Source: Lineus longissimus (lineage: Eukaryota > Nemertea > Pilidiophora > Heteronemertea > Lineidae). Taken from it: a stretch of 64,000 nucleotides of DNA. Where the stretch lies: contig NC_088325.1 in the NCBI RefSeq assembly GCF_910592395.1, positions 13,642,109 through 13,706,108 on the forward strand. The letters are read 5' to 3'. The first letter of the stretch is position 1. Each line of letters opens with the position of its first letter. Both the position numbers and the translations under genes were made by a program. The notes below the pieces were generated by a model. It saw nothing but the letters and a program-made list of their open reading frames with translations, was not told where the DNA came from and did not search any database. Below, in pieces: positions 25,461 to 64,000 of this stretch.

Positions 25461-25473
25461 AGCACTTCCACCT

Positions 25474-25935
25474 CTACATCATGCCTTGTGACTCCTTCGA
25501 CATGTCAGTGACTTTGATGTCGGAGATGTGACGGGCGCCTCCACTGGACATCCCCTTCTGTGACGCCCCACCGGTGAAACCAGCTTGCTTGCTGAGGACG
25601 CTCTGGCCCTCTTTCGACATTTCCGCGTCAACCTTGGTGTCGCAGATATGGCGACCTGCTCCGAAGGACATGCCGGACTGAGAAGCTCCACCGGTGAAGC
25701 CTGCCTGCTGACTGAGCATGCTCTGGCCATCTTTTGACATGGCATCCACCTTAATATCAGCAATATGGCGGCCAGCACCCATGGACATGCCCGATTGGGA
25801 GGCTCCGCCAGTGAAGCCTGCCTGCATGCCTAGGATGTTCTGACCAGCCTTCATCTGCTCGTCGCTGAACTCCCTGACGTTCTTTGTGGTTGGCGCCGCA
25901 CCGATGGTCATGCCCGGGAATACGTTTCTTTGAGC
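25474..25935 (-). CDS. Calponin locus, alternative terminal exon T2: three repeats
   Basis: A phase-0 acceptor (CATCTTCAG at 25936) opens 153 codons and a TAG. It begins AQRNVFPGMTIGAAPTTKN and VREFSDEQMKAGQ, then has three repeats of the form [18 protein letters not shown] and RHIADI. The third has QKGMSSGGA. With the constitutive exons it gives a 296-aa protein, close to vertebrate calponins, which also have three repeats. The resemblance in number may be convergent, because these repeats are closest to those of T3. Confidence 0.87.
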   Translation of the reverse strand, partial: AQRNVFPGMTIGAAPTTKNVREFSDEQMKAGQNILGMQAGFTGGASQSGMSMGAGRHIADIKVDAMSKDGQSMLSQQAGFTGGASQSGMSFGAGRHICDTKVDAEMSKEGQSVLSKQAGFTGGASQKGMSSGGARHISDIKVTDMSKESQGMM

Positions 25936-25999
25936 CTGAAGATGGAAGGTGGGTTAAGTAAACATGCTCTTCTAAAGGTTCCTGGTGATACTAGTTGCA

Positions 26000-28480: not shown

Positions 28481-28494
28481 TTAGTCATAGTTCC

Positions 28495-30345
28495 TTAGAA
28501 ATCTGAAACATCCGCAATTTGCCTTTGCGCGCCGAAATGCATTCCCTGTTGGTTAGCGCCTCGGTTGGTTCCCATTTGCAGTGGTATCATTCCCGCGCTG
28601 TCTTGGGCGTAGGGATCCGACTTGATGTCTCCAACGTGCCTCTGGTTGCTGAAATTCATGCCTGCTTGGGAGGCGCCCTTGTTGTAACCGTATTGCGAGC
28701 CGATGATGCCAGCTCCCTCTTGCGAGTACTCGTCTGCTCTGACGTCTGCGCCGTGCCTCGTTCCGCCCATGACCATTCCAGACTGTGTGGCACCTCTGTT
28801 GGAACCCGATTGTAATCCGATGACACCTTGGCCTTCCATTGACCCGGGGTCGAGTTTCATGTCGCCAGCATGTCGGACACCGCCCATGACCATTCCGGAT
28901 TGTGACGCCCCCGTGTTTGAGCCTGATTGCAAACCAATAACGCCTTGCCCCTCCATGGACATGGGGTCGACTTTCATATCTCCTGCATGACGGACTCCAC
29001 CCATGACAAGACCCGCCTGGGATGCGCCTCTATTCGAGCCTGATTGGAGACCGATAATGCCTTGGCCTTCGGTAGTCATTTGGTCAACTTTCATGTCGCC
29101 ACCATGTCGGACACCGCCCATGACCATTCCAGATTGTGATGCCCCCATGTTAGAGCCTGACTGGAGACCAATAATGCCTTGCCCATCCTTCGACATGGGG
29201 TCGACTCTCATATCCCCGCCATGACGCACGCCTCCAAACGACATGCCCATCTGTGAAGCGCCCTTGTTGGAGCCGGACTGTAGACCAATGATTCCCTGAC
29301 CTTCTGCTGAGATCTCATCGCACCGAATGTCACCAGCGTGACGCACTCCTCCAAAGGACATTCCTGATTGGCTGGCGCCTTGGTTGGAACCGGCCTGTAG
29401 ACCAATCACGCCCATTCCTTCCAGTGCCATGTCGTCTGTTCTGATATCACCGCAGTGGCGGATAGAACCGAACCCAATCATTCCCTTCTGCGAATCGAAT
29501 TTATTTGTTCCGCACTGTAGGCCGATTACTCCCTTGCCTTCCTCCGACATATCATCGCAAGTGAGATCCGCGCAATGCCTCACGCCGCCAAAGGTCATTC
29601 CTTTCTGAGATGCTAATTTATTCGTGCCATATTGCAGACCAATGATCGCAGAGCCCTCGTTTGACATATCATCAATCTTGATATCACCGCAATGGCGGAC
29701 GCCACCCATGGGCGCCATTCCAGCCTGGGAAGCGAGTTTGTTCGTGCCGTATTGTAATCCAATGACCATGTCACCGTCGGTTGACGCTTTGCCACAGTCG
29801 ATATCTCCTCCGTGTCTGACGGAGCCGAACCCAGACATACCCTTCTGCGAAGCGAACTTATTCGTGCCCGACTGCAACCCGATAACATTATGTCCCTCTT
29901 TCACCGATTGGTCGCACCTGATATCGGAGACGTGCCTCACCCCTCCCATTGCACACATGCCTTTCTGCGACGCGAACTGATTCGTCCCCGACTGCAGCGA
30001 TAGGTAGTTTTCGCCCTCCTTTGATTGTAAACCGTCGTGTTTTGTATCTCCTGCGTGCCGTACCGCTCCCATGCTCGTCATGCCCTTCTGGGACGCGAAC
30101 TGATTCGTACCAGACTGCAAACTGATCACGGATTCTCCTTCCTTTGACCCAGGACCACAGCTAATATCACCGACGTGCCTAACTCCTCCAATAGTCATAC
30201 CCTTCTGTGAGGCCAGTTTGTTTGTGCCGGACTGGAGCCCAATGATCGTATGTCCCTGCCGCAGCTGATCACGGGTGAATTGGCGACGGTTGTTGTTGAG
30301 AGGACCAGGTCCGATTGTCATGCCCCTGAACCCGCATCGCTGAGC
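28495..30345 (-). CDS. Calponin locus, alternative terminal exon T1: fifteen repeats
   Basis: A phase-0 acceptor (TTGTCTAG at 30346) opens 616 codons and a stop. After AQRCGFRGMTIGPGPLNNN and RRQFTRDQLRQGH it carries fifteen calponin-like repeats at a 39-41 residue period in one uninterrupted exon. Two classes are visible. Repeats 1-7 have GTN(K/Q)(F/L)ASQKGM and often Cys in or near RHCGDI. Repeats 8-13 have GSN.GASQSGM and RHAGDM. The last two are divergent (GSQYGYNKGASQAGM, PLQMGTNRGANQQGM). With the constitutive exons it gives a 759-aa protein, the longest isoform and the one nearest the shared exons. The probable role is multivalent binding along actin filaments. Confidence 0.9.
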   Translation of the reverse strand, partial: AQRCGFRGMTIGPGPLNNNRRQFTRDQLRQGHTIIGLQSGTNKLASQKGMTIGGVRHVGDISCGPGSKEGESVISLQSGTNQFASQKGMTSMGAVRHAGDTKHDGLQSKEGENYLSLQSGTNQFASQKGMCAMGGVRHVSDIRCDQSVKEGHNVIGLQSGTNKFASQKGMSGFGSVRHGGDIDCGKASTDGDMVIGLQYGTNKLASQAGMAPMGGVRHCGDIKIDDMSNEGSAIIGLQYGTNKLASQKGMTFGGVRHCADLTCDDMSEEGKGVIGLQCGTNKFDSQKGMIGFGSIRHCGDIRTDDMALEGMGVIGLQAGSNQGASQSGMSFGGVRHAGDIRCDEISAEGQGIIGLQSGSNKGASQMGMSFGGVRHGGDMRVDPMSKDGQGIIGLQSGSNMGASQSGMVMGGVRHGGDMKVDQMTTEGQGIIGLQSGSNRGASQAGLVMGGVRHAGDMKVDPMSMEGQGVIGLQSGSNTGASQSGMVMGGVRHAGDMKLDPGSMEGQGVIGLQSGSNRGATQSGMVMGGTRHGADVRADEYSQEGAGIIGSQYGYNKGASQAGMNFSNQRHVGDIKSDPYAQDSAGMIPLQMGTNRGANQQGMHFGAQRQIADVSDF

Positions 30346-45199: not shown

Positions 45200-48100
45200 T
45201 TGATGAGGGTATCCGAAACGGGCTAAAAGGGCGAGGGACACGGTGTGAGTTATCCGGCGTGCGAGAAGCTAGTGGTGAAACGGGCAGGCAGACAACAGGT
45301 TGGGCTCCTAAACTTCGCCTACCCACTTTTCTAGAATGAGGGTAGAGAAGGGGGACTGCACCTTGCAATGTTGATTGGTTTCATTCCATGTTCGGTTTGC
45401 CTGAAACTATTCCACATTTTACACGATAGATTGTATACGCGGTATCAGCAAACTCGTAGGTGGATTGAACAGTTACCTGTAGCTTAGCAGACGATGGAGT
45501 GGAAACAACAAACCTCGTCCAATCTTAGCAAATACCTGAACGTTGAGTGCACACAGCAACGTAAGTTGCCTACCTGGGGTGATGTTTATTATTTCCGGTA
45601 CACATGCGCATTGTTTGAAAACCCCTTCAGGGACCCCATCGGAAAGCGGAGGCTGAAGACGTGATAGTTTCCTCCCGAACTCGGATCATATTCAGATGCC
45701 TTGGATGCCTTGCCCAAATATGCGGCAAGGTTTACCTGGATGGTCTGCAGGTGGACTCGCGTATTTTTAGGCCTACAGGCAGAGATGTAAAGCACAGTCA
45801 TTGCCAATTCCACCTTAGGTATAATGTAACTGTAGAGTATAAACGTACAGTCGTGCACAGACCGCTTCGGTCGAGTTAGGGTGAGGATTAATTCTGGTTG
45901 TGTCCCACCTTGAAACCGCTGTAGTCAACGGTAGTTTTTGAGCATCGAAGCAAAGTTTTTATGATCATGTTTATGATGACATCAACTGAGAAGCAGTAAA
46001 GATGTAGAGCGGGTGTTTAGATGCTTCTGATAGTGTCTGCAAGGCGCGTGGATGGATTGTGTAGGAAAGGAAGAGGCCAAACATCTAAGATAATGGTGAA
46101 CACCGGAGAAGAATGATTCAAATATGTAACAAATGTGAGACGTACATGTAATGGAAGTCAGATTTGAACAAAGAATACTCAAAAAATAGTAAAAATACAA
46201 CACACTCTTTTAAAGTCGAAGAGCATTCAGACTATCTTTCAGAACCTAATGAAATCCTGGTACGATATCACCCTGAGCGCACAATTCATTCATAGATAGT
46301 TTAATGACTCTGTCGCCGAAAGGCTTGGAACGTGTGTCGCCGCAAGGCTTGTTTACACCTTGACCCACCTGTATCAGTATTACAACATGGCGTCATACAA
46401 TCACCAGCTTTGTGGGGGGGGGGGGGGGCAGCACAAAGGGTGTTTTGCCCCCCCCCCCGAACACAAGCTAGCTATGCCCCTGATATTGCATTGTCTTCAA
46501 CTGGCATCCCAACTACTAGGCATCCTTTTAAAGTCAACTAATTTCTTTCGGACTAACATTGATTACGGTTGCTCAGTTAGAGTACCTAACTCGATAAAGG
46601 GACTTGGCGATCTCGAAGCTTGAATATTATGCATTCCATTTCCGTCATCCAGATCATTTTTCCTTCCTCACTGGGCGACAGGACGAGGCCAGTCCACTGC
46701 GCCCGGAGTGTTTGTGGGTGAAAATGCCGACACTATGCAGCCAGGAAAAGACCAACAGTACGCAGCCACCGGTGATGTTGAGGATAGGTTCGGGAGATAT
46801 TCCATTAACAACAGGATTAGTTCAGATTCCACAGCTCGAGGCAATGATTAATAAACAAACAAGTTATGTTTTTACAAACATTACCAGCTTCAGCATCGAA
46901 CCTGGTGAGGATCTTTCTAAAATTATTTCAGAAATGAGAAATACTTAAAGGCTTACGCCGCTCGTGTACCTTGTTTTTGTGTGTGCCACAAGTAAAAAGA
47001 GTAAATATCCACACGTACTGGCACCAATCATGTCAGTTCTGACAAAACCCACTGCTTGGAATACCTGCAGGGGAATTTTTGCGGCCACTCTCGGCATATT
47101 AAGATGGTGATGTAGGCAAACTTTAAAACAAGGCTTGGAGTAACCATTGGCTGGTACTCTAAGACCATACTGAACTTCTAGCGGTATTGCCTCCGTAGCA
47201 TCCGCCCATAGGCCTACCCGTTGTCTGGAAGCAGAGTAATGTCAATACATTGAGGGCCAGTATGAACTCTGAGGGCTAACACATCTCTTGCCCGTGGATT
47301 CATCACCGGGAGCCATCTGTTCATTAAGGATGTTTTATCATCTTACCGAGCTATCATCAGGTGAGATTTATTGGTGTTCAGTAATCGATCATGAGAAGGA
47401 TAGGAATGTTCGTGCGAATAGGTTGGTGTAGGCGCGGGAATTGGTACCGTACCTTCGCACGCATGACGCAGATATTCGCAAAGCCACCGACATGACCGGC
47501 CCTTGTTCATCCTCCTTAACTTTAGAACGTTGCTTTATATTAGCTTTGATCAGTACCCCTGCCCCAGCTCTGCCAGTGGTCCCCCTTTTAAACTAGACTG
47601 TAGACAGCAGCCAGGTGGGCCAGACTTAGTCACGATTAGAAGGGAGAAAATCACGCAACAAACCGAAAGGAGTTTCCAATGAACTTTGTGCCGAGGTCGC
47701 ACTCACGTCAAAGTCACCGGGATTGGCAGCCTGGTGGGCGTATTGGGCCGAACAGCGTGTCGACAAGATAACGCATGATGAGCGCTGTTCAGTGGGAGCA
47801 TGGCTTCATGCTTGTTTAAGGATGCCTCACCTGGGAGAACCTGGGTTGGAATGTAGGTAAAACAGATAGCAGACGATCCGTGTGATTCCATGAGAATGGC
47901 AATGCATGTCGGTGTAGAAGTTTGAAATGTCCAAGGATAGAATGTCCCAGATATGATTTTTTCTCTCTGAGGTATTGACAGTGACTTTATCATGGTCAGT
48001 CTTTGTAAAAAAAGTCACAAACTAGAGGATCAATGACGGTTTACGACACTTCGTCTGCCTGCTGTGCGCAACACTGTCAACAGTGCATAGTTTGTGACTC

Positions 48101-48260
48101 TGTCGCATCATTGCCAAATTTCGTCACTATGACGACGTGACCGATTCTCTTGTCTCTTCTAGGACGACCACTTGCTTGGTGTATGTCCCAGAATTTTAGT
48201 GGTTTTGGAATGTAGAGGATGGTTTTTGTGGTGGATCCCCTATGGTTGTGACTGCCTTCA
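45200..48260. other. Intergenic region between the calponin and zinc-finger loci
   Basis: No supported exon. A G15 and a C11 tract (46414-46428, 46448-46458) form a short palindrome-like pair. The 114-codon plus-strand frame near 46604-46948 lacks an ATG at its start and any recognisable domain. Confidence 0.45.
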
Positions 48261-48382
48261 GATTTATTCATGATAAAAGGACCTTGCACGCCGTCACCAG
48301 CCTCGGTATTCAGGTGCTGTTTTGCGGGACGCAGCACATGTATAATAATCAAATAACCAGTCCTATATTTGAAGTTATGATG

Positions 48383-48388
48383 TTTATT
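48383..48388 (-). other. Poly(A) signal AATAAA after zinc-finger exon F
   Basis: TTTATT on the forward strand, about 120 nt past the stop at 48505; another copy is at 48263-48268. Confidence 0.5.
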
Positions 48389-48504
48389 ATTTGTGATGAG
48401 AACAAACAAAATATATTGAAATGTCACAGTCTCTGTTTAAATGCCTACGCCTTTCGTGTACAGTGTTTTCGGGTGTTCCTTGGGCCTATCGATTTACGTA
48501 CAGT

Positions 48505-49328
48505 TCAATGTTTTTTTTCAGTGTGGATACGTTTATGACTGAGCAAATTACTGCTATTTTTAAATGCTTTATCACACTGGTCACACTCATATGGTCTCTC
48601 TTCCGAGTGAACCAAATAGTGCGACTTCAACCCGCTTCTTCTGTGGAATGTCTTGTCACACATGTCACACCGAAATGGTTTCTCTCCAGTATGAATACGT
48701 TTATGCATTATCAATTTACTACTGTGTATGAATGCTTTATCACACTGATCACAAACAAATGGTCTTTCTCCTGTATGAATACGCTTATGCTGAATGAGCG
48801 AGCTACTCTGTGTGAATGTTTTATCACACTGGTCACAGCGAAATGGTCTTTCTCCTGTATGGATACGTATGTGCTGGCTAAGTGAACTACTGTCTCCAAA
48901 ACATTGGTCACAGTAATCACAATTAAAAGGTTTTTCACCAGTGTGAATACGCTCATGTCTGACCAAAGATTCCCTTTGAGTAAAAGATTTGTCACACTGG
49001 TCACATCTGAATGTTTTTTCTCCAGTATGAATAAGCTGATGTCTGACGAGAGAACTTTTCTGGGCGAATGCTTTATTACAAAACGCACAAATATACTGTT
49101 TCAATCCTGTGTGGAGGATTTTATGTCTGTTGAGGTTGCCCATAGTTTGAAATATTTGGTTGCACTCGTCACAAACGTAAATCTGAGTGGAACTCGGGAG
49201 CGGATGTTTGGTCGTTCCAGATGTTCGTTTCTCAGAAGCAGACGCTTGCTTGGGCAACCCAGATGTCTCCTGATTGGAAGATCGTGATGATATCCAGATG
49301 TCATCGTGTTGGAGGTCGTCAGATGACA
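48505..49328 (-). CDS. Zinc-finger locus, alternative terminal exon F: eight C2H2 fingers
   Basis: An acceptor AATTGCAG at 49329 is entered in phase 1. Its first two bases complete a Val codon, followed by SSDDLQHDDIW. A finger-free lead of about 45 residues is followed by eight C2H2 fingers with TGEK/RP linkers and a stop after EKKH. No ATG or N-terminal module lies between this exon and the stop of exon E, 1135 bp away. The simplest reading is that exon F is spliced to the shared N-terminal exons at 57.5-58.6 kb. It could alternatively have an upstream exon I cannot see. Poly(A) signals follow. Confidence 0.82.
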
Positions 49329-50083
49329 CTGCAATTAGAAGAAGAAAAGAAAGGTTGAAACAGGTGTGGACCGCATTTGGTACGGTTGCCTAGAGATGGC
49401 ACCTCAGGGAAAAGAAGCAGGGCTGAACCATGGACAAACTAGCAACGTCCCACAAAGGCTCTTCATGTCACTGCTCTGGAACTCGAGTGCAGCGACCAGT
49501 CCGACCTGGAGAATTGGCCATAGACGGACAAAACTTGAAGCGACTCGTGGGCGCCCAGTGCTCCAGTCGGAGGGAAGAGGTGCAAACGGGTTTCGCACCT
49601 GCAAATCTCGAGTCGGGTAGTTCTCCACTGAATTACTAGAGGCCGTTCAGGAGAATTCAGAAAACAATTCGGGGACAACCAGGGCATTTTCGGAGGGGAG
49701 TTAGCCACCAACAACATGGAGAATATGTACATGACTTGTGGCTGATCTATATGTTCGTTGTATATGCTGCCAATGCAGACATTGCTATGCACCAGCCAAA
49801 TACCAGATTGACTGGCTGTACCCCCCCTCTTAGAGAATAGGCAAGGCCGCATTTCGTAAGTGTCCCAGACTATTCGTTAGGCACACTGAAAAAGCCAAGG
49901 GTCCAGAAGCCAGCAGTCGATCTTATTTTTCATGTGATTTGTGCTTTGTTGACTAGGAGACTTTGACATGTCTGAAGACCTGATTAGTGGTACATCAGTC
50001 AGATAAGAGGAATATCCTGTTGACTCCAACTCAGATGTTTCTGGGATCACAATAAAAAGAAGACAATTGTATTCTTACATATG

Positions 50084-50089
50084 TTTATT
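50084..50089 (-). other. Poly(A) signal AATAAA after zinc-finger exon E
   Basis: TTTATT on the forward strand, about 375 nt past the stop at 50464 and upstream of exon F. Confidence 0.5.
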
Positions 50090-50463
50090 CTTATAATTGT
50101 TATGTCACAACACAGAATACAACCTTATGCAGTTATAATAGAATGGGATGTAATAGACTACTAGTACGTACATTGAGAATGAACATTCGAGAGCGGATGT
50201 TGGACTTTGGTGATGTTTCATCATAGTTTTGTGCTCCCCAAACTAGTATACAAGGGCTGGCTTTGTATCCTGCAAGGGCTGGACGATTGTAAGGCCTGGA
50301 GATAGCTGATGATACGTGATCTGGTTAAACAGGTGGTCTCTAAGTGAAAGAGCTGAGGGCAGTGCCAGCAGGTGATACAGAGGTTAGACGAATGGGGTGA
50401 TTCAGAGCACAGGGGAAGGGGTGGTTCAGAGCAAAGGGAAAGGGGTGGTACAGCGCCTGGGTG

Positions 50464-52013
50464 CTATGGATTCTTGTGGGACAGCATATGACGCGCCAGA
50501 CCAGTGGCTTGTCGAAAATCTTGACCACATTCAAAGCAGATGAATGGTCTTTCTCCTGTATGAATACGCTGATGTTCGGCAAGATTCCCTTTCTGTGTGA
50601 ACGTCTTGTCACACTGGTCACACTTGAATGGTCTCTCTCCCGAATGAATACGGATATGCTGAACAAGGTGACTCTGCCTCGCAAATGTTTTTTCACAGAA
50701 ATCACAACGAAATGATTTTTCTCCTGAATGAGACAACATGTGACGTGTCAGTGCAGATGCTTGAGTGAATGCTTTACCACACTGGACACATTCAAATGGT
50801 TTCTCACCTGTATGAATACGTTTATGGGCCACAAGGTTTGCCTTCTGTATAAAAGCCTGATCACACTGGTCACATTTATATGGTTTTTCTCCAGTATGAA
50901 TACGTTTGTGTTCAACAAGATGACTCTGACTAGACAACGCTTTATCACAAAGATCACATTTGAACAACTTTTCTCCTGTGTGTGACACCATGTGACGAGT
51001 AAGACCATGTGCTTGACGAAATGCTTTTCCACACTGGCGACATTCGAATGGTTTTTCACCAGTATGAATGCGCTGATGCTCAATGAGTTTACCGTGGAAC
51101 TGGAACATGCTATCACACTGGTCACAAGCAAATGGCTTCTCTGCAATCAGCCCAGCATGACTTTTCAAATGCTGAACCAGATTGCGTTTATTCTTGAATG
51201 CTTTATCACACTGGTCACAAGGAAATGGCCTTTCTACTGAATGAGTGCTCTGGTGTTTGTTCAGCTCGCTTCTACGTATAAAAGCTTTATCACACTGGTC
51301 ACATGCAAATGGTCTTTCACCAGTGTGAATACGTCTATGCCAGGTGAGCTCATTGCGCCATCGAAAAACTTTCTTACACAAGTCACATTCAAAACGTTTT
51401 TCTCCAGTATGAATAAGTTTGTGGTCATGTAACTGGTCCCGATTTGGAAATTTTCGACTACACTGGTCACAAGCAAATGGCGTCACACAAATGGTGTTAC
51501 ACACACGACTGTTCTTCAAATGCTGACCCAAATTGCGCTCACTCTTGAAAGTTTTCTCACACTGCCCACAGGCAAACGGCCGTTCTTCCGAATGAACAAT
51601 CCAATGTCTTTTTAGTTCGTTTTTCCGTTTGAACGTCTGATTACACTGGTCACATGTAAAGGGTCTATCTCCACTATGAATGTGTCTATGTTCTTCAAAG
51701 TCCTTATCATTGGTTAACACCTTATCACAAAAGTTACATTTTAACTCATGGACTTGCTTATGCCAGATAAGTTCAGTGAACCACTTGAATTCTTTGTTAC
51801 ATATCGAACAACAGTAAGGTGTTTCTTCGGAATAAGTAGTCTCAGATTCTCCAGTATCTGTCGACTTTGCCACTGCGGTTCCGACATGCTCAATGATAAG
51901 TGTCTTAGAAGTCGTCACTTGTTGACCACTTTTGTTCGAAGGATTGTCCAATGTCTGTATCATCTCAGCAGCACTGTCACATTTCATCAGACCCTCATAG
52001 ACTCCCGATGAAA
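50464..52013 (-). CDS. Zinc-finger locus, alternative terminal exon E: sixteen C2H2 fingers
   Basis: Acceptor CTACTTGCAG at 52014, phase 1, completing Val then SSGVYEGLMKCDS. After about 65 polar residues come sixteen C2H2 fingers to residue 515, ending HMLSHKNP. Finger 4 is non-canonical (HLKNSRVC as last ligands) and is followed by an insert (NTICVT); finger 2 has Leu for the core Phe. Fingers 10, 13 and 16 share a HM(V/L)SH ending and their neighbours alternate with a HKRIH/HIRIH type, suggesting growth by duplication of multi-finger blocks. The exon lies 436 bp after the stop of exon D, with no room for a separate N-terminal module. Confidence 0.85.
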
Positions 52014-52449
52014 CTGCAAGTAGAACAAGGCAGAGGTGAACTTGAGAAAACTAGTGTGATCTCTATTAGGACTGAGATGGTTAGCAGAGACACCTATCAG
52101 GCAATTTTCAAACATCAATCCAGCCCACCTCATTTCTGCCTGTAATGCCCCTTTAAAAAGATTAATCCTGAAGGAAATGTATTTTCCCAAAGAATATCAC
52201 TTTCGACAGACCTTATGGGGGTTGCCAAGTTCTTTTGACCACAACATGTTTTATCAAGATGGCAAACACACCCAGTATAAACATTACAAGGCTAAGGTTG
52301 GTTATATGTGACCGCCTGGTACCACCCAATGATGTTGTAGTTCCCAGACTCCCCACTGGTACATCAGACACTTGGACCCATTGGCATGGTGGCCAGCAGT
52401 GTTACCCAATAGTCTATGTGGCTCCTCAAATGATTTTCCTGTCTTGTGT

Positions 52450-53366
52450 CTACTGCTTTTCCCCATCATCGAGATTTATCGTCACCGAGTAACCCTCGTA
52501 TCGATGCACTATTTCTTTATGCCGATTGAGAGCATCCTTTCGCACGAATGTTTTATCACACTGGTCACAGGCAAATGGCCTTTCTGCAGTATGAATAAGT
52601 CTATGGCGCTCAAGAGCACTCGCCCAAATGAATGATTTATCACACTGGTCACATTTACATGGTCTTTCTCCTCTATGACAACGTAAGTGATGATTCAGCG
52701 TATTTTTCAATTTGAATGTTTTATTACACTGATCACAAGCAAATGGTCTTTCACCAGTATGGATGGATTTATGCTGAGAAAGGGTACTCTCGTGATCAAA
52801 TATTCTACCACACACGTCACATGCAAGTGGGACTTCTCTATGAATGCGTCTATGCTGATTAAGATTACCCTTCTGCTTGAATGTCTTATCACACTGGTCA
52901 CAAGCATGTGGTCTATCTCCATGAGTCAATTTATGCTGACACAGCGCATAATCGTCTTCGAATATTTCATCACACTTGTCACATTCAAGAGGTTGCGAGT
53001 CTGAATGTTTGATATGAATACGTTCGTGCCGGGACAGATTACTCATATTTGCGAATGATTTGTCACACTGGCCACACACAAATCGCTGTTCTCCAGTAAT
53101 ATGAGTCAATCTATGCTTAGAAAGAATCGTCTTATCACTGAACCTTTTGATACACTGGTCACACGCAAATGGCTTTTCTCCTGTATGAATACGCTCATGT
53201 CGTTTCAGATAACGTTTTTCTGTAAATTCCCGGCCACAATCCAAACACTTGTGAGACTTGTTTTTCTCCGTGGTATTCCGATGTTCCCTTGAATGTTCAG
53301 AGGACTGGCGATGGCCTATTTTGGAACTCTCTGACTTAAATCCACCCCTATTATCAACTGATGAAA
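52450..53366 (-). CDS. Zinc-finger locus, alternative terminal exon D: nine C2H2 fingers
   Basis: Acceptor CTATTTGCAG at 53367, phase 1, completing Val then SSVDNRGGFKSES. About 40 residues of polar lead precede nine C2H2 fingers, ending with a longer HKEIVH spacing and the tail YEGYSVTINLDDGEKQ. The open frame extends upstream of the acceptor (to about 53475), but that part reads through intron. The exon lies 412 bp past the stop of exon C. I see no AATAAA or ATTAAA between its stop and exon E, so its transcripts may use the signal at 50084. Confidence 0.85.
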
Positions 53367-53623
53367 CTGCAAATAGAATAAGAGCTAATCTAAGAAGGCT
53401 TGCTACGACTCGGTGACATTTCATGTTTGTATTGGCCAACAGAACCTCCCAAGGACATCCATATTTCTGAGACAATGGACCTGGGTGGAGCGGTAGGGAA
53501 CCAGTCGGGAAACTGAGTAGGGATTAAGCCCGGGCTCCACAGAACACTTTCTGGGGCTTCAAAAAGTGGCCACAAAGTGAGAATTGAACTCATAAAAAAC
53601 ATAACTAACTTTTAGTCCCAAAC

Positions 53624-53629
53624 TTTATT
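53624..53629 (-). other. Poly(A) signal AATAAA after zinc-finger exon C
   Basis: TTTATT on the forward strand, 150 nt past the stop at 53779. It is also the first usable signal after exon B. Confidence 0.5.
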
Positions 53630-53778
53630 CGCTGCTTCATCTTATACATGTAATACATTTACATTATCTAAATAACAGTTCGTTTCTGTCTCAAAAGATC
53701 GCCACTCCCCATGAAGGTCTTTCTGGAGCTTGTAAGTGTCAATTCAAGGCCCTACTCTTTTTGAGTCAACACTGGTCT

Positions 53779-54548
53779 TTATCTTGTGTGTTGATACTTA
53801 TGCTTATTGAGTGCACTACTCTGTGTGAATGCTTTATCACACCGGTCACATTTATATGGTCTTTCCCCTGTATGAATACGCCTATGTCTGGTCCGATCAC
53901 TATTGGATATAAAAGTTTTATCACACAAGTCACAAGCATATGGTCTTTCTCCTGTGTGAATCATTTTATGTTTGGTAAAATAAGTTCCGTCTGAAAATGC
54001 TTCATTACACTGGTCACATCTGAATGGTTTTTCTCCCGTATGAATACGCTGATGCACTGTGAGATGAGATTTATAAGCAAAGTCTTTGTCGCACTGGTCG
54101 CACTTAAATGGTCTTTCTCCTGTGTGAATACGATTATGTCTGGCCCGATCACTACTAGTGATGAAGGTTTTATCACACTGATCACAAGGATATGGTCTTT
54201 CTCCTGTGTGAGTTGTTTTGTGTCGTGAAAGATTAGTTCTGTGTGTAAAATCCCGGTCACACTCGTCACATTTGAATGGCCTTTCACCAGTGTGGCTTCG
54301 CTTATGATATCTTAAGTTATTACTATGGTTGAATGACTTATCACACAGGTCACATTTGAAAGGCTTCACTCCGCACTTATGAGATTCAAGCAATCCTTTC
54401 CACGGGAACGTCGCGTTACATCTTTCACATTTGTGACCTTTTTTCTTGTCCTTTTTGACTAAGGTGTTTCCTGTTTTGACTGAAGACAGGTGGGACTTGA
54501 TTGTAGCATGCGTACAATTGGTCTCGACACGCAAACCAGAAGATGAAA
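53779..54548 (-). CDS. Zinc-finger locus, alternative terminal exon C: seven fingers plus a degenerate one
   Basis: Acceptor TATTTTGCAG at 54549, phase 1, completing Val then SSSGLRVETN. It begins with a basic lead and a half finger (HKCERCNATFPWKG, then SHKCG with no second His), followed by seven normal C2H2 fingers. It is a tandem duplicate of exon B: acceptor, lead and first two fingers are nearly the same. It stops in a linker (KYQHTR then TAA), where exon B reads TGERP. The TAA replaces GAA, and about 10 nt of homology continue past the stop. The acceptor lies only 113 bp after the exon B stop. Confidence 0.85.
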
Positions 54549-54661
54549 CTGCAAAATATAACAGAGAATGTGTGTTATACAGTCATCTGGGAAGTCTAGT
54601 ACAGTCGACTTTTCAAAAGCGTTTTTGATCTGGAAATCCAAATTTACAGTTACACCCCCAG

Positions 54662-55980
54662 TTACCCGTACTCATTTGGGGGTGATTCTTTCACCACTTT
54701 GCCCTCTCTGTCATGGACACTTTTATGATAAATCAGACTACTTTTTAGCGCAAACACTTTATCACACCGGTCACATTTGAATGGTTTTTCTCCAGTATGA
54801 ATACGCTGATGTTCGAGAAGACCCCAGCTTCGTGTGTAAGACTTATCACACTGGTCACACTGGAATGGTCTTTCGCCAGTATGAGAGCGTTTATGTTGAT
54901 ATAGTGTACTCATCTGCTTGAACGTTTTATCACATTCGCTACAAGCAAATGGTCTTTCGATAGAATGAATATTACGTTTATGCTGAGAAACTTCACTACT
55001 CCATGCAAACGTTTTGTCACACTGGTCACAGGCAAATGGTCTCTGACCAGTATGAGTAAATCTATGCTGATACAAAGTACTACTTTGCTTGAATGTTTTA
55101 TCACACTGATCACACGCATACGGCCTTTCCTCAGAATGAATTCGTCGATGTCTGCCAAGATCGCCACTGCAGACAAAGATCTTATCACACTGGTCACAGG
55201 CATAAGGTCTTTCTCCAGTATGAACCCGTTTGTGTTTTGTCAAATCATTACTGTACGCGAATGTTTTACCGCACTGGTCACAGGCGAATGGTTTTTCTCC
55301 TGTATGGATTTGTAAGTGCCGGCTCAGGTTGCTACTCTTTTTGAATGCCTTGCCACATACATCGCACTTGTAGCCAGGTATTCCTCCTGAATGGACATTG
55401 CGTTGATGCTGATAGAGCGCGCTACTCTGCGTGAAGGTTTTATCACACAGGTCACAGCGAAACACTGGTCTTTCTCCTGTGTGTTGATACTTATGCTTAG
55501 AGAGTGCACTACTCTGTGTGAATGCTTTATCACACTGGTCACATTTAAATGGTCTTTCCCCTGTATGAATACGCCTATGTCTGGTCCGATCACTATTGGA
55601 TATAAAAGTTTTATCGCACTGGTCACAGGTGTATGGTCTTTCTCCTGTGTGAACCATTTTATGTCGTGTAAGATAAGTTCGGTGCGAAAATACTTCATCA
55701 CACTGGTCACATGTGAAAGGTTTTTCCCCTGTGTGGCTTCGTCTGTGATATTTCAAGTTATTACTATGGTTGAATGACTTATCACACTGGTCACATTTGA
55801 AAGGTTTCACTCCGCACTTATGAGATTCAAGCAATCCTTTCCATGGGAATGTTGTGTTACATCTTTTGCACTTATGTGCTTTATTCTTGTCCTGTTTGTT
55901 CCCTGTTTCAACCGAAGACAGTTGGGACCGGGTTACAGAATGCGGATAATTGGCCTCGACACGCCAACCAGAAGATGAAA
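54662..55980 (-). CDS. Zinc-finger locus, alternative terminal exon B: thirteen fingers plus a degenerate one
   Basis: Acceptor TATTTTGCAG at 55981, phase 1, completing Val then SSSGWRVEANYPHS. A degenerate finger (HKCKRCNTTFPWKG, SHKCG) is followed by thirteen C2H2 fingers with mostly TGE(R/K)P linkers and the tail KVVKESPPNEYG. Two fingers have one extra residue between the His ligands (HQRNVH, HKRNIH). Being nearest to the linker exon at 57492-57534, whose phase-1 donor fits, it gives a 680-aa protein with N-terminal exon 58567-57887 (227+14+1+438 residues). No poly(A) signal lies between its stop and exon C, so its 3'UTR probably runs through exon C. Confidence 0.87.
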
Positions 55981-57179
55981 CTGCAAAATATAACGGAGAA
56001 CGCCTAAATAGCAGTTGTTATTGAGGTCTCAGTCTAGTGCCTTCGCAACAGGGGCAGTCATAAACTCATGATGGTCCCCGTAACTGGTAAAATCCTTTGT
56101 TGATCCGTCCCTAGGTTGATTTTCTAGGGCACACTTCCTCTTTTCCTGTGTATCAGTGTATCACTGTCAGGGTGAGACAACATAACTCAATTCAGTGATG
56201 GAAATCCGGTGCCCCATGCATGCATTCCTTGATGGCTGCTGAGAATGGAATCCGACTGGCATCTAACTGGTGTGCAGCTGTGCATTCATTGTAGAAGGTC
56301 AAGCTACCTCATAGTATCTTCGTGTAGGCCGGGATTGAACTCGACGACTGGTTTTTCTCATGCTTTGCTCTTGGTCACAATTGGTTGGTGTCAGATTCTA
56401 CTCCCTCAGATCTGTTACTGCAATAGTGTGGACCTCATGTGTCCGAAAAATGCTGCAACACAGAACAAGACCAAGGTTTCCCAGTCTGCTTTGCCAGGCC
56501 GCCCTTCAGCACCGAAAAAAATGTCATGAACTTTGAGCATCATCAAATGCTTCCTGACGGAGAGACAAGAACAATACGTCTTCCAAATTCAATTTATGTA
56601 TCCTCAAGGAAGTACTATATGTTGTTTGTCACTGGTGACAACATAGTCATGTAAACTGAACTAAAGGATCATCACAAATTTTACCCGGTGCCAAAAAAAT
56701 GGGGGACATGGATATATTGCAGTGCAAGTCAACAATGAATCACACAGGTGCGTATTTGATCCCTTTACACATTACTTAAAACCCGATTCTTACTGGCATC
56801 AAGCAAATTTTAGGAAGGAACCTTTCAACATTAGAATTGACTAGTATTTGCACTCCTTTGAAGACTTTGAAGAATCAGTTTTGCCATGGCAGAAATTTGG
56901 ACAGAATTGTCCAACAACTTTTCTGACAAGGCTGTGTGGCTTTCATAATATGCACAACTAAAGTACATGAAGGACATGTAGATATTCTTACAGTAATCTA
57001 TGCACCTGGTATACACTTCTTGAATAGCTTGTGCCAATTCCTGCCAATCAGGGTGCTTCACTGTTCTCAAAGGAGTATTTGAACTTGAATGAGAATTTGG
57101 TTCCTAAACATGCATAAAAATTCAAAGTGCAAAGACTATAGATCACTAAGCCTGAGCCATTTGCAGCAAAATACATGTA

Positions 57180-57357
57180 CAGTGGAACCTCCCTTAGCGG
57201 ACACCTCTGAATTAAGGACAACCTCTCTATCAAGGACACTAGTTATGGTCCCAAATTGGTTGTTTTAATTCAATTTGACCTCTGTAATCAGGACACCTCT
57301 CTATTAAGGACAGCACTTGTCAGTCCCGAGGGTGTCCTTGATGGAGAGGTTCTGCTG
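57180..57357. mobile_element. Pogo/Tigger-like MITE, 178 bp
   Basis: The ends CAGTGGAACCTC and GAGGTTCTGCTG are imperfect inverted repeats flanked by TA on both sides, as expected for Tc1/mariner-superfamily insertion. Inside are repeats of the 'ggacacctctctat.aaggaca' type. The family is widespread in marine invertebrates (from memory). It lies in the intron between the linker exon and exon B. Confidence 0.7.
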
Positions 57358-57491
57358 TACTAACAAAATTTCCCAGCCATGGTAGGCTCTTTTGTGCAGT
57401 GCTCTTTTCTCATGAAATGGACTATACATGTTGTTCTGGAATCATACTCTTTATTCTTGATACAGTCATTGAGTTTGAAGAAGCAACTTAC

Positions 57492-57534
57492 CAGTGTCAT
57501 CTCCAGCTTGATTGTCTTGGTTCAAACACATCTG
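57492..57534 (-). CDS. Zinc-finger locus, 43-nt linker exon
   Basis: Acceptor ACATTTCAG at 57535, donor G|GTAAGT; enters phase 0 and leaves phase 1. It encodes QMCLNQDNQAGDDT plus the first base of the next codon. It is the counterpart of the 37-nt exon at 61577-61613 (QDVYLSPPGNDA), and its phase shift 0 to 1 is what allows the N-terminal exon to join any of exons B-F. Confidence 0.75.
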
Positions 57535-57886
57535 CTGAAATGTTTTTGAGAAACCATTTTACACTCAACTATATTCATAAAAACCCTGGAATAGGGAGCT
57601 TTCAAACTTCATTTGTGATAAAGTATCTTTAATGCAGAAGCTGTTTATCTTTGAACATGTTGATGAAATTCTAAGTCCACATTCAAAACGATGCATTGAA
57701 ATCTATACAAGGAAGTCTCAAAAACTGAACTGAGACTATTTGGCAATCAAATCTGACCCAGAGATCAGTTTAGTCTTTGATTTGATTCCTGGATGTGTTT
57801 CTAGAAAGATGAGACGTACATTGTATTTTTGTTCTTAGGCCAAATGTGCAAAAGATGCTTTTGACAGTCAGGCCAAACGAACTTAC

Positions 57887-58567
57887 ATCATCATCAGCCA
57901 CGCTGGCATCGTTACTACTCCCGTCTATGTCTTCCTCTGCAGGCTCCTCTTTCACGACTCCACTCTGCACAGGATGGAGCGGGTCTTCAACATCGATTCT
58001 CAACAGACCCCGGTTCCCAGCTGCTGGTATGAGGCACACAGGAACAGGCCCTGCTGAAGGTAGCAACTCATTTCCTTCTCCCTGCCACTCACCAGCTGGT
58101 GCCCCGTAAGGATAAGAGCTTGCTGATGAACTTGGCTCATCATAGTAGTCATCAGCAGGTTCCGTTTTGATTGTAACATTATCCTGAGCACTAGACTCCT
58201 CAAACTCAGACTCTGAGCTTGGAGTCTCTGTTTTAGTCAACTCAGTTCCGTAGTCATTGAAATCATCTGATGCACCCTCTGTGCAGTAAAAAGTCTTACT
58301 AATGTCACTCACTGTGTCAACATCTGGTTCTGCCTTTATGCGAATGTTTGAACTGAACGTATCACCAGAGTCAAATTCAGATTCGAAGTTTGAACTGAAC
58401 TGGTTACTAGATGGACCAAGAGACTGATCTTGCTCAGATGAATCATCCAATTTGTGGGCAAGTTCTTCCGGTTCGTTCTTGACCACACATCCCTGGCCCT
58501 GCTCAAGCTCCCTGACCTCATACAGTCCATGATGTTGATCATCAAGTTCAGAGCTAACAACATCCAT
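57887..58567 (-). CDS. Zinc-finger locus, shared N-terminal exon (227 aa, acidic)
   Basis: ATG at 58567, donor GAT|GTAAGT, phase 0. The region is acidic and Ser-rich, likely a transcription-regulatory segment. It has four SUMO-acceptor-type sites (VKNEP K30, IKAEP K78, IKTEP K134, VKEEP K206). Residues about 173-203 (PVPVCLIPAAGNRGLLRI, then EDPLHPVQSG) match the paralogue at 62 kb closely and the 18-finger protein loosely. It is not a BTB, ZAD, KRAB or SCAN domain that I can recognise. No zinc finger is present; fingers come from the downstream exons. A further 5' non-coding exon is likely, since a CTTTTTGCAG acceptor lies near 58613. Confidence 0.85.
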
Positions 58568-58697
58568 ACCAAAGCTCTACCTGGGCTTCGTTAGATATCC
58601 AACCAGGGTTCAAGACGTCTGCAAAAAGAAATCTTGAATCAAAACATTGTCACTACTACACTCCAAGAAGTGAAAATAGTCGAATAGACCCTTTAAC

Positions 58698-58749
58698 ACC
58701 AGGCGGAGGAAGCCTCTGAGGGCCCAAACAGTGGCTTCCTCCGCCTGGT
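58698..58749. repeat. Perfect 17-bp hairpin in the 5' flank of the zinc-finger locus
   Basis: ACCAGGCGGAGGAAGCC (58698-58714) and GGCTTCCTCCGCCTGGT (58733-58749) are exact inverted copies with an 18-nt loop, 130 bp upstream of the start codon. It may be a 5'UTR/intron hairpin or a MITE remnant. Confidence 0.65.
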
Positions 58750-58898
58750 ATGTACGTCTGATTCTGAATTGGGTGAATAAAATCAAGAAAGAACTTCAGC
58801 ACGTCATGGGCATTACTTCTAACGGTGGAATATATTTCCACATTCCAACTGCATAAGTTTCCGAGGTACCTGGCTTTTATTTAACACTAAAATCCAAT

Positions 58899-58982
58899 GT
58901 TTACCGAACGAAAATCATCCAAAAAATGAACAAAGAAAAAAAGACGCCATTTAATTATTTGATTTGAGTGAGTCATAAAAAG
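58899..58982 (-). promoter_or_regulatory. 5'-flank block conserved with the paralogous gene
   Basis: This block aligns with 63008-63090: 'gtttacc..acgaaaatca.cc', then 'gccatt', then 'ttgagtgag.cataaaa'. Each copy lies 0.3-0.5 kb upstream of the start codon of a minus-strand zinc-finger gene. Probably a duplicated promoter or 5'UTR; function inferred only from position and conservation. Confidence 0.5.
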
Positions 58983-58989
58983 AAGCCCA

Positions 58990-59685
58990 ACAATAAAAAC
59001 TAATCTCCCTTATCTTATGATAATAAAACCAAATCTTGACCAAATCAATATCATGATATACAAAATACAATTTTTATCAATAAAGATGCATTCATTAAAC
59101 TAAACAATAAATTTTGATAAATATAATCAATAATTATTTGCAACGTAGCATTCATGTTGGGATCGTCGTTAAATGCAATAGCTCAGCCGTGATCCACCCG
59201 GCGGTTGTCTATGGTGTATGACAAGTGCACAAAAACTGTCCCTAGCCACGGGCATTGCTCTTCCTAAGAAATCCCTTGAACAAGACAGATTGTACGCCCG
59301 TAACACAGCATGACTTTGCTTAGATTAAAAGAGAGCATGGACCACTAGAATATTGTATTCCCCAGACAATTCTATCCTTGGCTAAATAAGGAGGACAGAG
59401 GAGCAGGAAGAAAAAGGATGTCACAACTGGCCACAACCAGGGAGGTTGTTCAACCCAATTAGAAGACACTCCCACATGAGAACTTTCGTTCCTATTTGCC
59501 CGTCCTCAGAACTGGACCAGAGTCAAGTCCACATTGCTCACACTGTCCATTTCCACATTGCCATCATGGGGAGTTTTGTTGATTTGCTACACAGGTGCTT
59601 CACCAGACTGGAAACCAGCCTCTCGAGAATTGAAAGGACAGTTCACATCGGAAATAGGAAGCAAAATAACATGTAATCTTTAAGG
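58990..59685. other. Gap between the two zinc-finger genes
   Basis: AT-rich DNA without a coding signal, between the conserved 5' block of the multi-exon locus and the 3' end of the 14-finger gene. Confidence 0.45.
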
Positions 59686-59689
59686 TCAT

Positions 59690-59695
59690 TTTATT
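59690..59695 (-). other. Poly(A) signal AATAAA of the 14-finger gene
   Basis: TTTATT on the forward strand, about 255 nt past the stop at 59948; a copy also lies 10 nt after the stop (59933-59938). Confidence 0.5.
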
Positions 59696-59947
59696 GTCAT
59701 AATTGGACATACTCCGATAGATTTGATTCAAATTAAGTTTTGGACTTAAAGGAGTTTGTAGACAGGAGTTTGGTAGGTCACATTCAGTTACATGACGTCA
59801 TTGATAGGGGTTTCTCCTATCTCACAGTACTTTGAAACTCATCATAGTTGTTCCGCTCAATCAAATTAAGCTAAGTTCCCAACCTGATCACCAATTTTAC
59901 CACCTAGCTCCTGACTATAGACCCCCTTTAAATTTATTTTACACTGG

Positions 59948-62583
59948 TTACAGCCAAATTTCTCCTGCATGAGTAGCTTCATGGTCAGTAAGTTCCAGCT
60001 TGCTTTTGAATACTTCCTCACACAAGTCACACTTGAGTGCGTGTAATTGTCCTCTACCAGTACATGTTAGTTGTTGGTGTCTTGTAAGAGCTGTTATGTG
60101 TCTAAACAATACATCACACTGGTCACATCGAAATGGTTTTTCACCAGTATGAATACGCTGATGCACTCCGAGATACCTCTTTGTAGCAAATGCTTTATCG
60201 CACTGGTCACATGCGAAAGGTTTTTCGTGACCTCCTGTATGAGCATGTTTATGGTAATTAAGTGCCTGTCCAGTTGTAAATGCTTTATCACACTCGTCAC
60301 ATTGATAACGTCTTTCTCCCGAATGAGTACGCTTATGTAAGGTAAGATGGAAATTCCGCATGTATGCCTTATCGCACTGGTCGCATTTGAATGGTCTTTC
60401 TCCAGTATGAATACGCTGATGCTCAATGAGTTTATGTCTCACTAGAAATGCCTTATCACAATATTCACAGGCAAATGGTCTTTCACTAGAATGCCAACGT
60501 TTATGTGACGACAGACAGGCTGATGTGGTGAATTTTTTATCGCATTGGTGACAGACATATGGTTTTACTCCTGAATGAAAATGCTTATGATGCGCCAGTT
60601 CACTTGGAAAGGTAAATGTTTTATCGCACTGGTCACAGGCAAATGGTTTGTCCTTGGTGTGAACTTTACGCTGATGTATAATCAGGCCAAATTTCCGCTT
60701 AAATGTTTTACCACACTGATTACAGGCAAATGGCTTTTCTCCTGTATGGATATGTTTATGTTCAGTGAGGTCACTCTCATTTGGGAATATTTCGTAACAA
60801 AAGTCACATTTAAACGTTGTTTCTCCTGCATGTAATGCAACATGCCTGGTGAGTTCATTCCAATAAACAAAAGCTTTATCACACCTGTCACACTTGAATG
60901 CCTTTTCGGTTGAGTGAATACTTTGATGGCCAAGGAGTTCACTTTTCAATCTACATGCATGACCACAGTGACTACACACGAAAGGTTTTTCTCCTGTATG
61001 AATATGTCGTTTATGAGATCTAAGGCGACTCTTGGTTTTGCATGCTATGTCACACTGGTCACACTTAAATGGTATTTCTTCGACATGAACTAGTTTGTGT
61101 CGGACAAGATCACCATTTTTTACATAGGTTTTATCACACTGGTCACAGGTAAATGGCCTTCCTCCACTGAGAGTAGAAAGCTCGTCCTGGCCTCTTGTTG
61201 AAGAGCTGTTCATGGCATCAAGACCCTCAAAGACATCACGCTTGCCCAATGATTGATCTGCAGTGAGAAAGAAAGAAATATGATCGTAAAGGGATCAGAA
61301 TCCCGCATAAACTAGACCCAAGCAGACGATACCAAAACAAAACACTACAGGTCATGCACTCATCAAACCATCTGTAACTTAGATGAATGCAGGCTTATCA
61401 GACTCAATTCATTTTCAATTTCACGGGAAAATACTTCTATGAACAAAAAGGAAGTCCGGGCTGCACATATAAAAGGGTCAACAGTTCATTAACATGCAGT
61501 AACAAACGTCTTCTTAGGACAAACATGCGATTCAGTGCTGCTTCAGTTTTTGAAATTAAGATGTAAAGCGACTTACCAGCATCATTACCAGGTGGGCTCA
61601 AGTACACATCCTGCTGTGATAAGAGAAAGAGAGGTATCAGCCCAGCAGTGGCAACCAAGTAGAAATTGCTCAAGCAGAATTACAGCCAAGGAGGTCAGGA
61701 CAGAAATACAAGAAATCAGAAAGTTCAATTTTGTTTACAATTTTCATTGCTCCTCTATAGACTGACTGGATCACTTCATCTGTATTTCATTCAATACTTC
61801 TTCTTTATTCAATCATACACAGTTATCTACGATGACCAGGACAATGATTGAATGCCTCAGTATTCGGCCCGAGTCCATCCCAGGCTTTAAACAAAGTAAC
61901 AAGTTGATAGATCCAGTTAACAAACTTACCTTGTCTGTGACAATATCGAAACCACAGGGATTCCCCTCCATCTCTTCCTCTGTTGGTTCATCTTTCACGA
62001 TTCCACTCTGCACAGGGTGGAGTGGATCCTCAATGTGGATTCTCAACAGACCCCGACTCCCAGGTGCAGGTATCAGATTTACTGGAACAGGCCCTGATGG
62101 CGCCTCATCTGGAGGTATGAATGAATCAGCGCTTGTTGATGAACTTGGATGCCCAACAGAGCCAGCAGCAGGTTCTGTTTTGATCTTCGTGTCACCGTGC
62201 AAAGCCCAACCAACTTCGCTATCCCCAGTCTTTATTTTCAACTCTGTTTCACTACTGCAATCCGTTGCATGATTCTGCATCTGAGTCTCATGAATCTCAC
62301 TTGCTGTGTGATCAGCCGGCTCCATTTTATGAATGTTTGAACCGAACTGAGCACCATAGTCCAGCCCTGTTTTAATGTTTGAACTGAACTTATCACAAGA
62401 ATCCAGCTCTGACTCTGTTTCAATCTTTGGATGGAAATGATCACCAGAATCCACAGAAAGATGTTGTTGTGATGGCTCAACCTTTACAGGAGTCAGTTCT
62501 TTGGGATCTGACTTGACACCACCTGGGGACAAATTCAGATCCCCGACCTCAAACACGTCATGACTAACGGGTTTGTTACTCAT
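59948..62583 (-). CDS. 14-finger C2H2 protein with acidic N-terminus, three coding exons, 666 aa
   Basis: Exons 62583-61930 (218 codons, phase 0 donor AAG|GTAAGT), 61613-61577 (37 nt, QDVYLSPPGNDA, phase 0 to 1) and 61257-59948 (phase 1, completing Asp, then QSLGKRDVFEG). The N-terminal part is acidic with SUMO-acceptor-type sites VKSD K24, VKVE K34, IKTE K135 and VKDE K197. The motif PVPVNLIPAPGSRGLLRI and EDPLHPVQSG lies at residues 164-194. Fourteen C2H2 fingers follow. Fingers 2 and 3 have Cys in place of the core Phe (DIACKTK, GHACRLK), and finger 13 ends in HQQLTC. It is a paralogue of the locus at 48.5-58.6 kb, but with a single finger exon. Probable nuclear DNA-binding regulator. The ATG at 62583 has a GGAGATGA context. 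Confidence 0.9.
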
Positions 62584-63007
62584 CTCCTCAGCTCATTCCT
62601 GGCTGGCTTCTGTCTGAATCTTCCACAGGCACAAGCGTGTTGTCACTAAAGGGTCCAAGAAGGATGTCTCAGGTCTCCAAAAGAAGACAACAAATAAGTG
62701 AATCATGCATCAATCATTGCCCATTCCTCCCTAGGAAGCCTTCAGTTCCTCCAATCCTTCTGGGGAGGGCCTAAAAACACATCCTCCTGTTGTGGTCACT
62801 GTCATCAATGATCACGATGATTGAACGTCATGTATTGCAAGTGATGTCATCGTTATGATGACAACTAAATTTTGATTTGATGGCGATATGATGATTTTGA
62901 AGGGGCGCATAAGCATGGGTAAGAGTATCTGCAAATGAAAGATTTTTCTTTCTTTTAACCGGGTAATTTTCAGCGGCATTGGAGAACGATTGCACACAAA
63001 AATCGTG

Positions 63008-63090
63008 TGTTTACCAACGAAAAATCAGCCAAAATAAAGAAAGAAAAGCCATACGCCATTTTCTTTTGCGAATTGAGTGAGACATAAAAT
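63008..63090 (-). promoter_or_regulatory. 5'-flank block of the 14-finger gene, paralogous to 58899-58982
   Basis: Same arrangement of words as the block at 58.9 kb, 0.4-0.5 kb upstream of the ATG at 62583. This shows that the duplication that produced the two genes included the promoter or 5'UTR. Confidence 0.5.
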
Positions 63091-63259
63091 GAAAGTGTAG
63101 AAAATAAAACTTTTTTCTATTATGATAAAAACTATTTAGCTTGACTTTTAAAAATATGTGATATGTTATATGTTCTTGATTGATTGAAAAGGCTATAAAG
63201 CCTTAAGTGCGAAATTGGACATTATTTAATATAAACCACACAATAATTTGCTAAATAAA

Positions 63260-63330
63260 ATATTCCAATCTCCAAGCGTCGTCGGTCGTTGCCAAGTCCC
63301 ACTCGACCTACTCAGTCTCCAAGCGTCGTC
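63260..63330. repeat. Dispersed repeat with two copies of TCTCCAAGCGTCGTC
   Basis: The word occurs at about 63270 and 63311 here and at about 15612, each time near 'actcgacctact'. It is a fragment of a family I cannot name. Confidence 0.45.
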
Positions 63331-63844
63331 AATGGTGATCGTCGTTTCAACGGTTGTATGTAAAATTCACATGGCCCGGCGGCCCGGCGACCGGGAGATT
63401 GAAAATATTCGTCGTGGTCGTCTTTGATCAATTCCAGCTGAGCCGTTTGCCATCCAACAGAATGTCTTCGGCCCCTTCGAGGTATTCGTCATGGATGTCC
63501 CTGCTGAAATTTAGCGAGGTTTTTGGCGCAAATTGTAAATGTCCTCAATAGCTGTGTATATGGAGGGACGATGTTCACCCTGTGGAATCAGCAACAACCC
63601 CTCTCTTAGAATCTCTGAGTCGCAGCCAATTACCTCTCCGAGCGAATTTACTAGGACAGGTTGTCGGCCTCAACTCAGGAGAACATAATCAGCGAGGTTG
63701 TCGAAGCAGTTTAAAGAATTATCTCCCTCTCACAACACAGATTTCTATTACATTGTATCGTCAAAGGCATGTGAAGAAATTCAAATTCAAACTATCGGCA
63801 ATTTATTCACAAGATCACATCAAATATACAACACGATTGCGTTT

Positions 63845-64000
63845 CTAATGATGAATGTTACGTCTGTGAGTGTAAAGGTTACTCTTCTGTGTGAATGTTT
63901 TGTCACACTGGTCACAGGAAAATGGTCTTTCTCCTGTATGAATACGTTTATGCTGATTCAAATGAATATTCTGCGTGAATGTTTTATCACACTGGTCACA
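63845..64000 (-). CDS. 3' end of a further C2H2 zinc-finger gene (partial)
   Basis: Read from the window edge, the minus strand encodes [20 protein letters not shown] then H, the linker TGERP, a second finger [20 protein letters not shown] then IHH, and a TAG stop at 63847-63845. Two complete fingers are visible and the rest lies outside the window. The style ([13 protein letters not shown]) is that of exons B-F, so the cluster continues upstream. It lies 1.26 kb before the start codon of the 14-finger gene. Confidence 0.85.

Follow-up and report, generated by a model that had tools for sequence, protein, structure and literature searches.

The 64,000-nucleotide stretch analysed here (the window; C19:13642109-13706108, on contig NC_088325.1 of Lineus longissimus) carries on its minus strand a zinc-finger locus in which a single N-terminal coding module (N-module) and a linker microexon are followed by five exons, A to E, each encoding an array of C2H2 fingers. 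The locus is labelled g2 among the tandem genes g3, g1 and g2. The minus strand was read from 59500 to 48000, exons were rebuilt and spliced models were translated, and whole-genome searches covered 391 Mb in 30 contigs. The coordinates that an initial annotation had given for the N exon, the linker and the five finger exons were all recovered (Table 1). That annotation also had both the N exon and the linker end in phase 1, which is right for the linker and wrong for the N exon, whose GT donor is in phase 0. The N-module exon has a likely acceptor before 58618, and the linker would be 40 nt long if the second AG of CAGCAG were used. GCAG precedes each finger exon, and the first bases (TTTCATC in four exons, TGTCATC in one) complete Val-Ser-Ser at the join from a phase-1 acceptor, as had been proposed. 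All five spliced models of N-module, linker and exon A, B, C, D or E read through (680, 497, 546, 757 and 515 aa) and have a single terminal stop, in line with the claim that every finger exon has its own stop; the gaps between consecutive finger exons (113, 412, 436 and 1135 bp) were likewise as annotated. A Pfam scan found PF00096 in all five finger exons (E 6.3e-36 to 4.3e-76). No second N-module was found inside the array, as the annotation had held: tblastn with the N-module gave no match better than E 5. An Rfam scan of 48000-64000 gave no match at the gathering score.

Table 1. Features of the locus and of its sister genes in the window; minus-strand features start at their higher coordinate.
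Feature	Position in window	Strand	Details
Promoter-like block	58943..58979	-	TGACTCA ... AAATGGCG; conserved ahead of family N-modules
N-module exon	57887..58618	-	ATG at 58567; coding sequence 58567-57887, 681 nt; donor GAT/gtaagt after 57887; phase 0
Linker microexon	57492..57534	-	43 nt; donor ACTG/gtaagt; brings frame to phase 1
Finger terminal exon A	54662..55980	-	13 canonical C2H2 fingers
Finger terminal exon B	53779..54548	-	7 fingers; closest to A
AATAAA after exon B	53624..53629	-	150 nt past stop
Finger terminal exon C	52450..53366	-	9 fingers
Finger terminal exon D	50464..52013	-	15 fingers
AATAAA after exon D	50084..50089	-	375 nt past stop
Finger terminal exon E	48505..49328	-	8 fingers; last exon of the array
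AATAAA after exon E	48383..48388	-	117 nt past stop
Sister g1 N-module coding sequence	61930..62583	-	phase-0 donor
Sister g1 linker microexon	61577..61613	-	37 nt
Sister g1 sole finger exon	59948..61257	-	13 fingers; phase-1 acceptor
Sister g3 last finger exon, end part	63845..64000	-	

A genome search with the N-module of the locus gave 13 matches including itself (E up to 1), and a search with a more central N-module gave 14 rows, two of which represent one C3 gene and one of which, on C10, is doubtful. Judged by sequence similarity, the locus is a member of a family of about 13 acidic N-module genes, in which the best conserved stretch reads about GPVPVxLIPAAGxxGLLRIDVEDPLHPVxSGxVKEEP (13 rows). 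A candidate donor in phase 0 was seen for thirteen N-module exons; it is GT in 12 and GC in one (C3:16990528, AAG/gcaagt). The downstream region was read at least partly in 12 loci (c1351 over 3.3 kb, C12 over 20 kb; c1350, at C19:13508xxx, was left out), and each has one N-module, one microexon of 3n+1 nt and one to six finger exons. There are six finger exons at g3 (next upstream but one), five at the locus under study, three at the C1 locus, two each at C19:14.43 Mb and C19:12.38 Mb, and one each at g1 (the upstream neighbour), three C3 loci, C19:8.40 Mb, C12 and C19:13.52 Mb (at least one, 3.3 kb seen), for a total of 25. The plan of one constant part and a variable end thus recurs in five multi-exon loci of one family, and seven loci are single. 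The total excludes an intronless gene at 6472-8631 (+), a broken g3 fragment (site C19:13716130) and a cut four-finger frame at C19:13517149; phase 1 was also a condition of the filter, and that condition on its own excluded just the intronless gene. Ten microexons share one sequence type, and c1351 and C12 have candidates of other sequence. In the loci fetched, a matrix built from those ten gives each of them at least 22 bits, with no other site exceeding 15.4, and no microexon was found inside the five multi-exon arrays (best score 8.0 versus 22.2 bits).

The finger exons also agree in how they begin. Of the 27 finger frames whose site could be assigned, 26 have phase 1; only the intronless gene departs from it. 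Among the 25 exons, mean pairwise identity is 0.79 at positions -10 to -1 of the acceptor, 0.52 at -20 to -11 and 0.24-0.28 beyond -40; for example, A and B match at 16 of the 17 bases that precede the exon and, farther out at -60 to -20, at 15 of 40. A 19-nt acceptor pattern derived from this family, which 11 of the 25 exons match within two mismatches, has eight genome sites at no more than one mismatch, all eight at family finger exons. Two mismatches add 20 genome sites, three of them in the family, and the reversed control gave seven sites in all. In a generic matrix the acceptors of A to E score 5.4 to 7.2 bits. That matrix alone misranked the right acceptor in several exons; the family motif ranked the right one first, an assignment that depends on the family itself. 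The spacer before the first finger is 20 to 99 aa long (25 exons) and has no Met in 16 of the 25, including A, B, C and E, so that translation of these exons depends on a start codon further upstream. In exon D, Met codons are present in frame in this spacer.

A single N-module and microexon against one to six finger exons, the retained phase and acceptor, and the missing Met in four of the five finger exons of the locus favour a shared N-terminal part. We consider it quite probable that the locus is a single gene in which five alternative 3' finger exons follow a constant 5' part, similar to lola without the BTB domain. The constant part would consist of a promoter, a 5' non-coding exon, the N-module exon and the linker microexon, whose phase-1 donor would be spliced to one of the five phase-1 acceptors. 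Each alternative 3' exon would bring a full C2H2 array with its own stop, and products B to E would arise when earlier finger exons are skipped. The pre-mRNA would end after B, D or E, which would put A in competition with B, and C in competition with D, within one transcript, and the products would have a common acidic, KxEP-rich N-terminal part and differing finger arrays. Of the five regulators with a common effector part and different specificities that the initial annotation envisaged, the shared N-terminal part is supported, through joins that we infer; the specificities, discussed below, are supported in part.

The same array could be explained if B to E each closed a separate gene that had its own promoter and short 5' exons which escaped recognition. 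A 37-bp promoter-like block lies upstream of the N-module, and a matrix for it was built from six sites, that of the locus included. Over 300 kb and both strands, the best nine sites are all upstream of N-modules and on the same strand; six are the training sites and three are new, with the weakest at 21.6 and the next site at 16.3. In a leave-one-out test, five of the six training sites outscored every non-training site. One version of the block, allowing three mismatches, has two sites genome-wide, both ahead of N-modules and one of them the query. Inside the five multi-exon arrays no such block was found, scores there reaching at most 10.2 compared with 21.6 for the lowest of the nine sites, and no microexon occurs there either. 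Likewise, none of the four gaps between A and E holds an ATG from which a phase-1 frame stays open as far as a donor scoring at least 6 bits, a combination that is rare in shuffled gaps too. The independent 5' exons or promoters for later exons, which the initial annotation regarded as incompatible with its reading, were therefore not found by sequence scans, the 5'-exon scan being weak. Separate genes gain some ground from one good donor (8.6 bits) in each of the C-D and D-E gaps, from the Met codons of exon D and from the width of the D-E gap; set against the mere 113 bp between A and B, the lack of promoter block and microexon in the array, and four exons lacking Met ahead of their fingers, we regard this explanation as improbable.

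Several observations weigh against a single gene with alternative ends. The linker acceptor is weak in the generic matrix (-1.0 and 1.5 bits), and searches for the promoter block came up empty at four loci: g3 and C3a, with 6 kb searched, and C12 and c1350, with 0.5 and 1.1 kb available upstream. The lack of 5' exons in the gaps says little, because shuffled gaps yield them at averages of only 0.02, 0.20, 0.19 and 0.44. A tree of the finger exons did not group them by locus; it is unreliable and was not used, since it separates A from B, probably through misaligned repeats. In addition, AATAAA and ATTAAA are missing between A and B and between C and D. None of 13 hexamer variants tried occurs in the A-B gap, and the C-D gap holds the rarer variants GATAAA, AATACA and AATAGA. 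Since A and C have no polyadenylation signal of this kind of their own, acceptor choice would have to count besides the choice of polyadenylation site. If C does not use the rarer variants, A and B would share one end and C and D another, and the choice within each pair would have to fall at the acceptors.

The missing signal after exon C also bears on whether some downstream finger exons are unused and decaying, with just A or a few of them spliced. Finger-exon copies do die, as is seen in g3, which holds a broken finger fragment without the family acceptor. Decay is hard to reconcile with five frames intact over 255-515 codons behind intact acceptors, or with the comparison of A and B, which are 71% identical. 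Over 252 codons, the synonymous divergence (dS) of this pair is 1.01 and the nonsynonymous divergence (dN) 0.17, a dN/dS of 0.17 that is a rough estimate owing to the repeats and that speaks for A and B only. No close copies of C, D and E were found for measuring selection. Overall, decaying copies seem to us an unlikely explanation of the array.

Across exons A to E, most fingers have different contact residues (-1, 2, 3 and 6), and three contact sets (HNNY, SSDR, QSAK) are common to A and B. It is thus likely that C, D, E and the A/B pair recognise distinct targets, with possible overlap between A and B. The different DNA specificities claimed in the initial annotation hold to this extent, with contacts differing between most exons; for A and B they are qualified by the three shared sets and by contacts that are not less alike than other positions. 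Faster change at contact positions was considered and rejected, as five exon pairs gave a mixed picture. In A/B, 15 of 24 contact positions are the same versus 19 of 39 others, the reverse of expectation. The proportions are equal for C19:14427919 and C1:4141967 (27/40 and 41/60). Contact and other positions agree at 15/40 and 33/60 in g3 13710094 versus 13711888, at 11/32 and 20/52 in the C3 pair, and at 10/52 and 22/78 in g3 13713695 versus 13715676.

The initial annotation had described the constant part as acidic and rich in SUMO sites, and the N-module indeed has a net charge of -43 over 227 aa and four [VIL]KxE sites, a number matched in 0 of 5000 shuffles (3 of 5000 with a looser motif). 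It was also said not to be a BTB module, and a Pfam scan agrees: no family scored above the cut-off, the sole hits, CTF_NFI (E 0.028) and RPC5_C (E 0.079), both falling below it, and neither BTB nor the KRAB, SCAN or ZAD domains were found ahead of the fingers. AlphaFold, run on the N-module without an alignment, gave a mean predicted local distance difference test score of 35 and no fold, which is weak evidence of disorder. The N-module is probably disordered, and is perhaps an effector segment that is SUMO-modified or binds cofactors.

Two fly genes offer the closest parallels. In Drosophila lola, cis- and trans-splicing couple a common region that carries the BTB domain to one of at least 20 sets of C-terminal exons, each set unique and most of them encoding zinc fingers (PMC1947980). 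For mod(mdg4) the description reports a shared 5' exon and many alternative 3' exons, with BTB and FLYWCH domains, and 3' exons that come from independent transcripts, partly on the opposite strand (PMC4667647). The locus has the same plan as lola, one constant 5' coding part and variable zinc-finger 3' exons, known here from genomic sequence, and by analogy it would work like lola. It differs in having no BTB domain, 7-15 fingers per exon and a design that recurs in paralogous loci; it is not a member of the lola gene family. With mod(mdg4) it shares the plan of one 5' part and several 3' exons that each have their own acceptor and stop and agree in phase; here, however, all lie on a single strand, and they carry C2H2 arrays with no BTB or FLYWCH. 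If the joins are real, a lola-like solution would exist beyond the insects, built on an N-terminal part unrelated to that of lola.

The trans-splicing that these accounts describe for both fly genes (PMC1947980, PMC4667647) raises the question of whether products here arise by trans-splicing or read-through among the tandem g3, g1 and g2. The 12 finger exons of these genes, all on the same strand, have phase-1 acceptors without exception, and each of the three microexons finishes in phase 1, so every possible combination would keep the reading frame. Nothing in the sequence demands such joins, however, and ordinary cis-splicing suffices because all exons are ordered behind their own N-module on one strand; we regard this origin as very unlikely. 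It is also doubtful that the three genes form a combinatorial cluster of 3 N-modules and 12 finger exons mixed by read-through or trans-splicing. If true, the animal would pick both the effector part and the finger array, and the cluster would mirror the clustered protocadherins, with 3' ends that vary and 5' starts that are shared.

Whole-gene copying is the usual explanation for large C2H2 repertoires. Tetrapod KRAB zinc-finger clusters, for example, are tandem C2H2 expansions in which a separate effector exon precedes one long finger exon, and whole genes are copied as a rule. The present family is alike in its tandem C2H2 expansion and in having a putative effector exon ahead of the fingers, whereas here the finger exon alone seems to be copied behind one N-module. 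The number of finger exons would have grown mainly through such copying of the terminal exon, and the family thus seems to grow via its DNA-binding end only, with the N-terminal part fixed. Paralogous loci with 1, 2, 3, 5 and 6 finger exons provide a natural series. Reciprocal best finger-exon pairs are A and B, g3 exons 3 and 4, exon 1 of C19:14.43 with g3 exon 2, two C3 genes, and C1 exon 3 with exon 2 of C19:14.43 (65%, dS 1.21). Mean exon identity is 0.489 within loci (30 pairs) versus 0.469 between loci (270 pairs). These values fit some local copying of terminal exons together with older copies or exchange between loci. Neither the locus nor the family was described in the literature searched, which was mostly titles and abstract openings with few subscription journals and is weak evidence of novelty.

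The spliced model of the sister gene g1 is 666 aa long with one terminal stop, and the N-module of g3 lies outside the window, at C19:13717736-13718386. At the head of the g3 array, the three-finger frame C19:13715799-13716344, without the family acceptor, is probably a dying finger exon. On the plus strand of the window, 6472-8631 is an intronless frame of 719 codons that encodes 17 C2H2 fingers and contains a degenerate version of the motif typical of the N-module (48% over 29 aa, E 0.004), possibly a retrocopy or an old single-exon relative of the family. At C3:9221925-9224468, two family genes stand divergent, head-to-head, with N-modules about 1.4 kb apart; the N-module matches of both cross an in-frame TAA, so these N-modules could be truncated or in decay.

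Repeated GTCCTTRATAGAGAGGT-like stretches at 57185-57350 (-), within the intron that follows the linker, were noted by eye and are perhaps a small mobile-element remnant. Short zinc-finger frames of about 100-160 aa are numerous on C5, around 5.7, 7.0, 11.4-11.6 and 22.4-22.6 Mb, in the set of 150 PF00096 matches that were scored out of 3918 candidates; these frames may belong to a different, multi-exon finger family. Elsewhere in the window, at 19457-30345 (-), four long frames are built of repeats of the form GLQxGTNxxASQxGMxxGxxRH, which we take to be calponin-like, of the CLIK/UNC-87 type.

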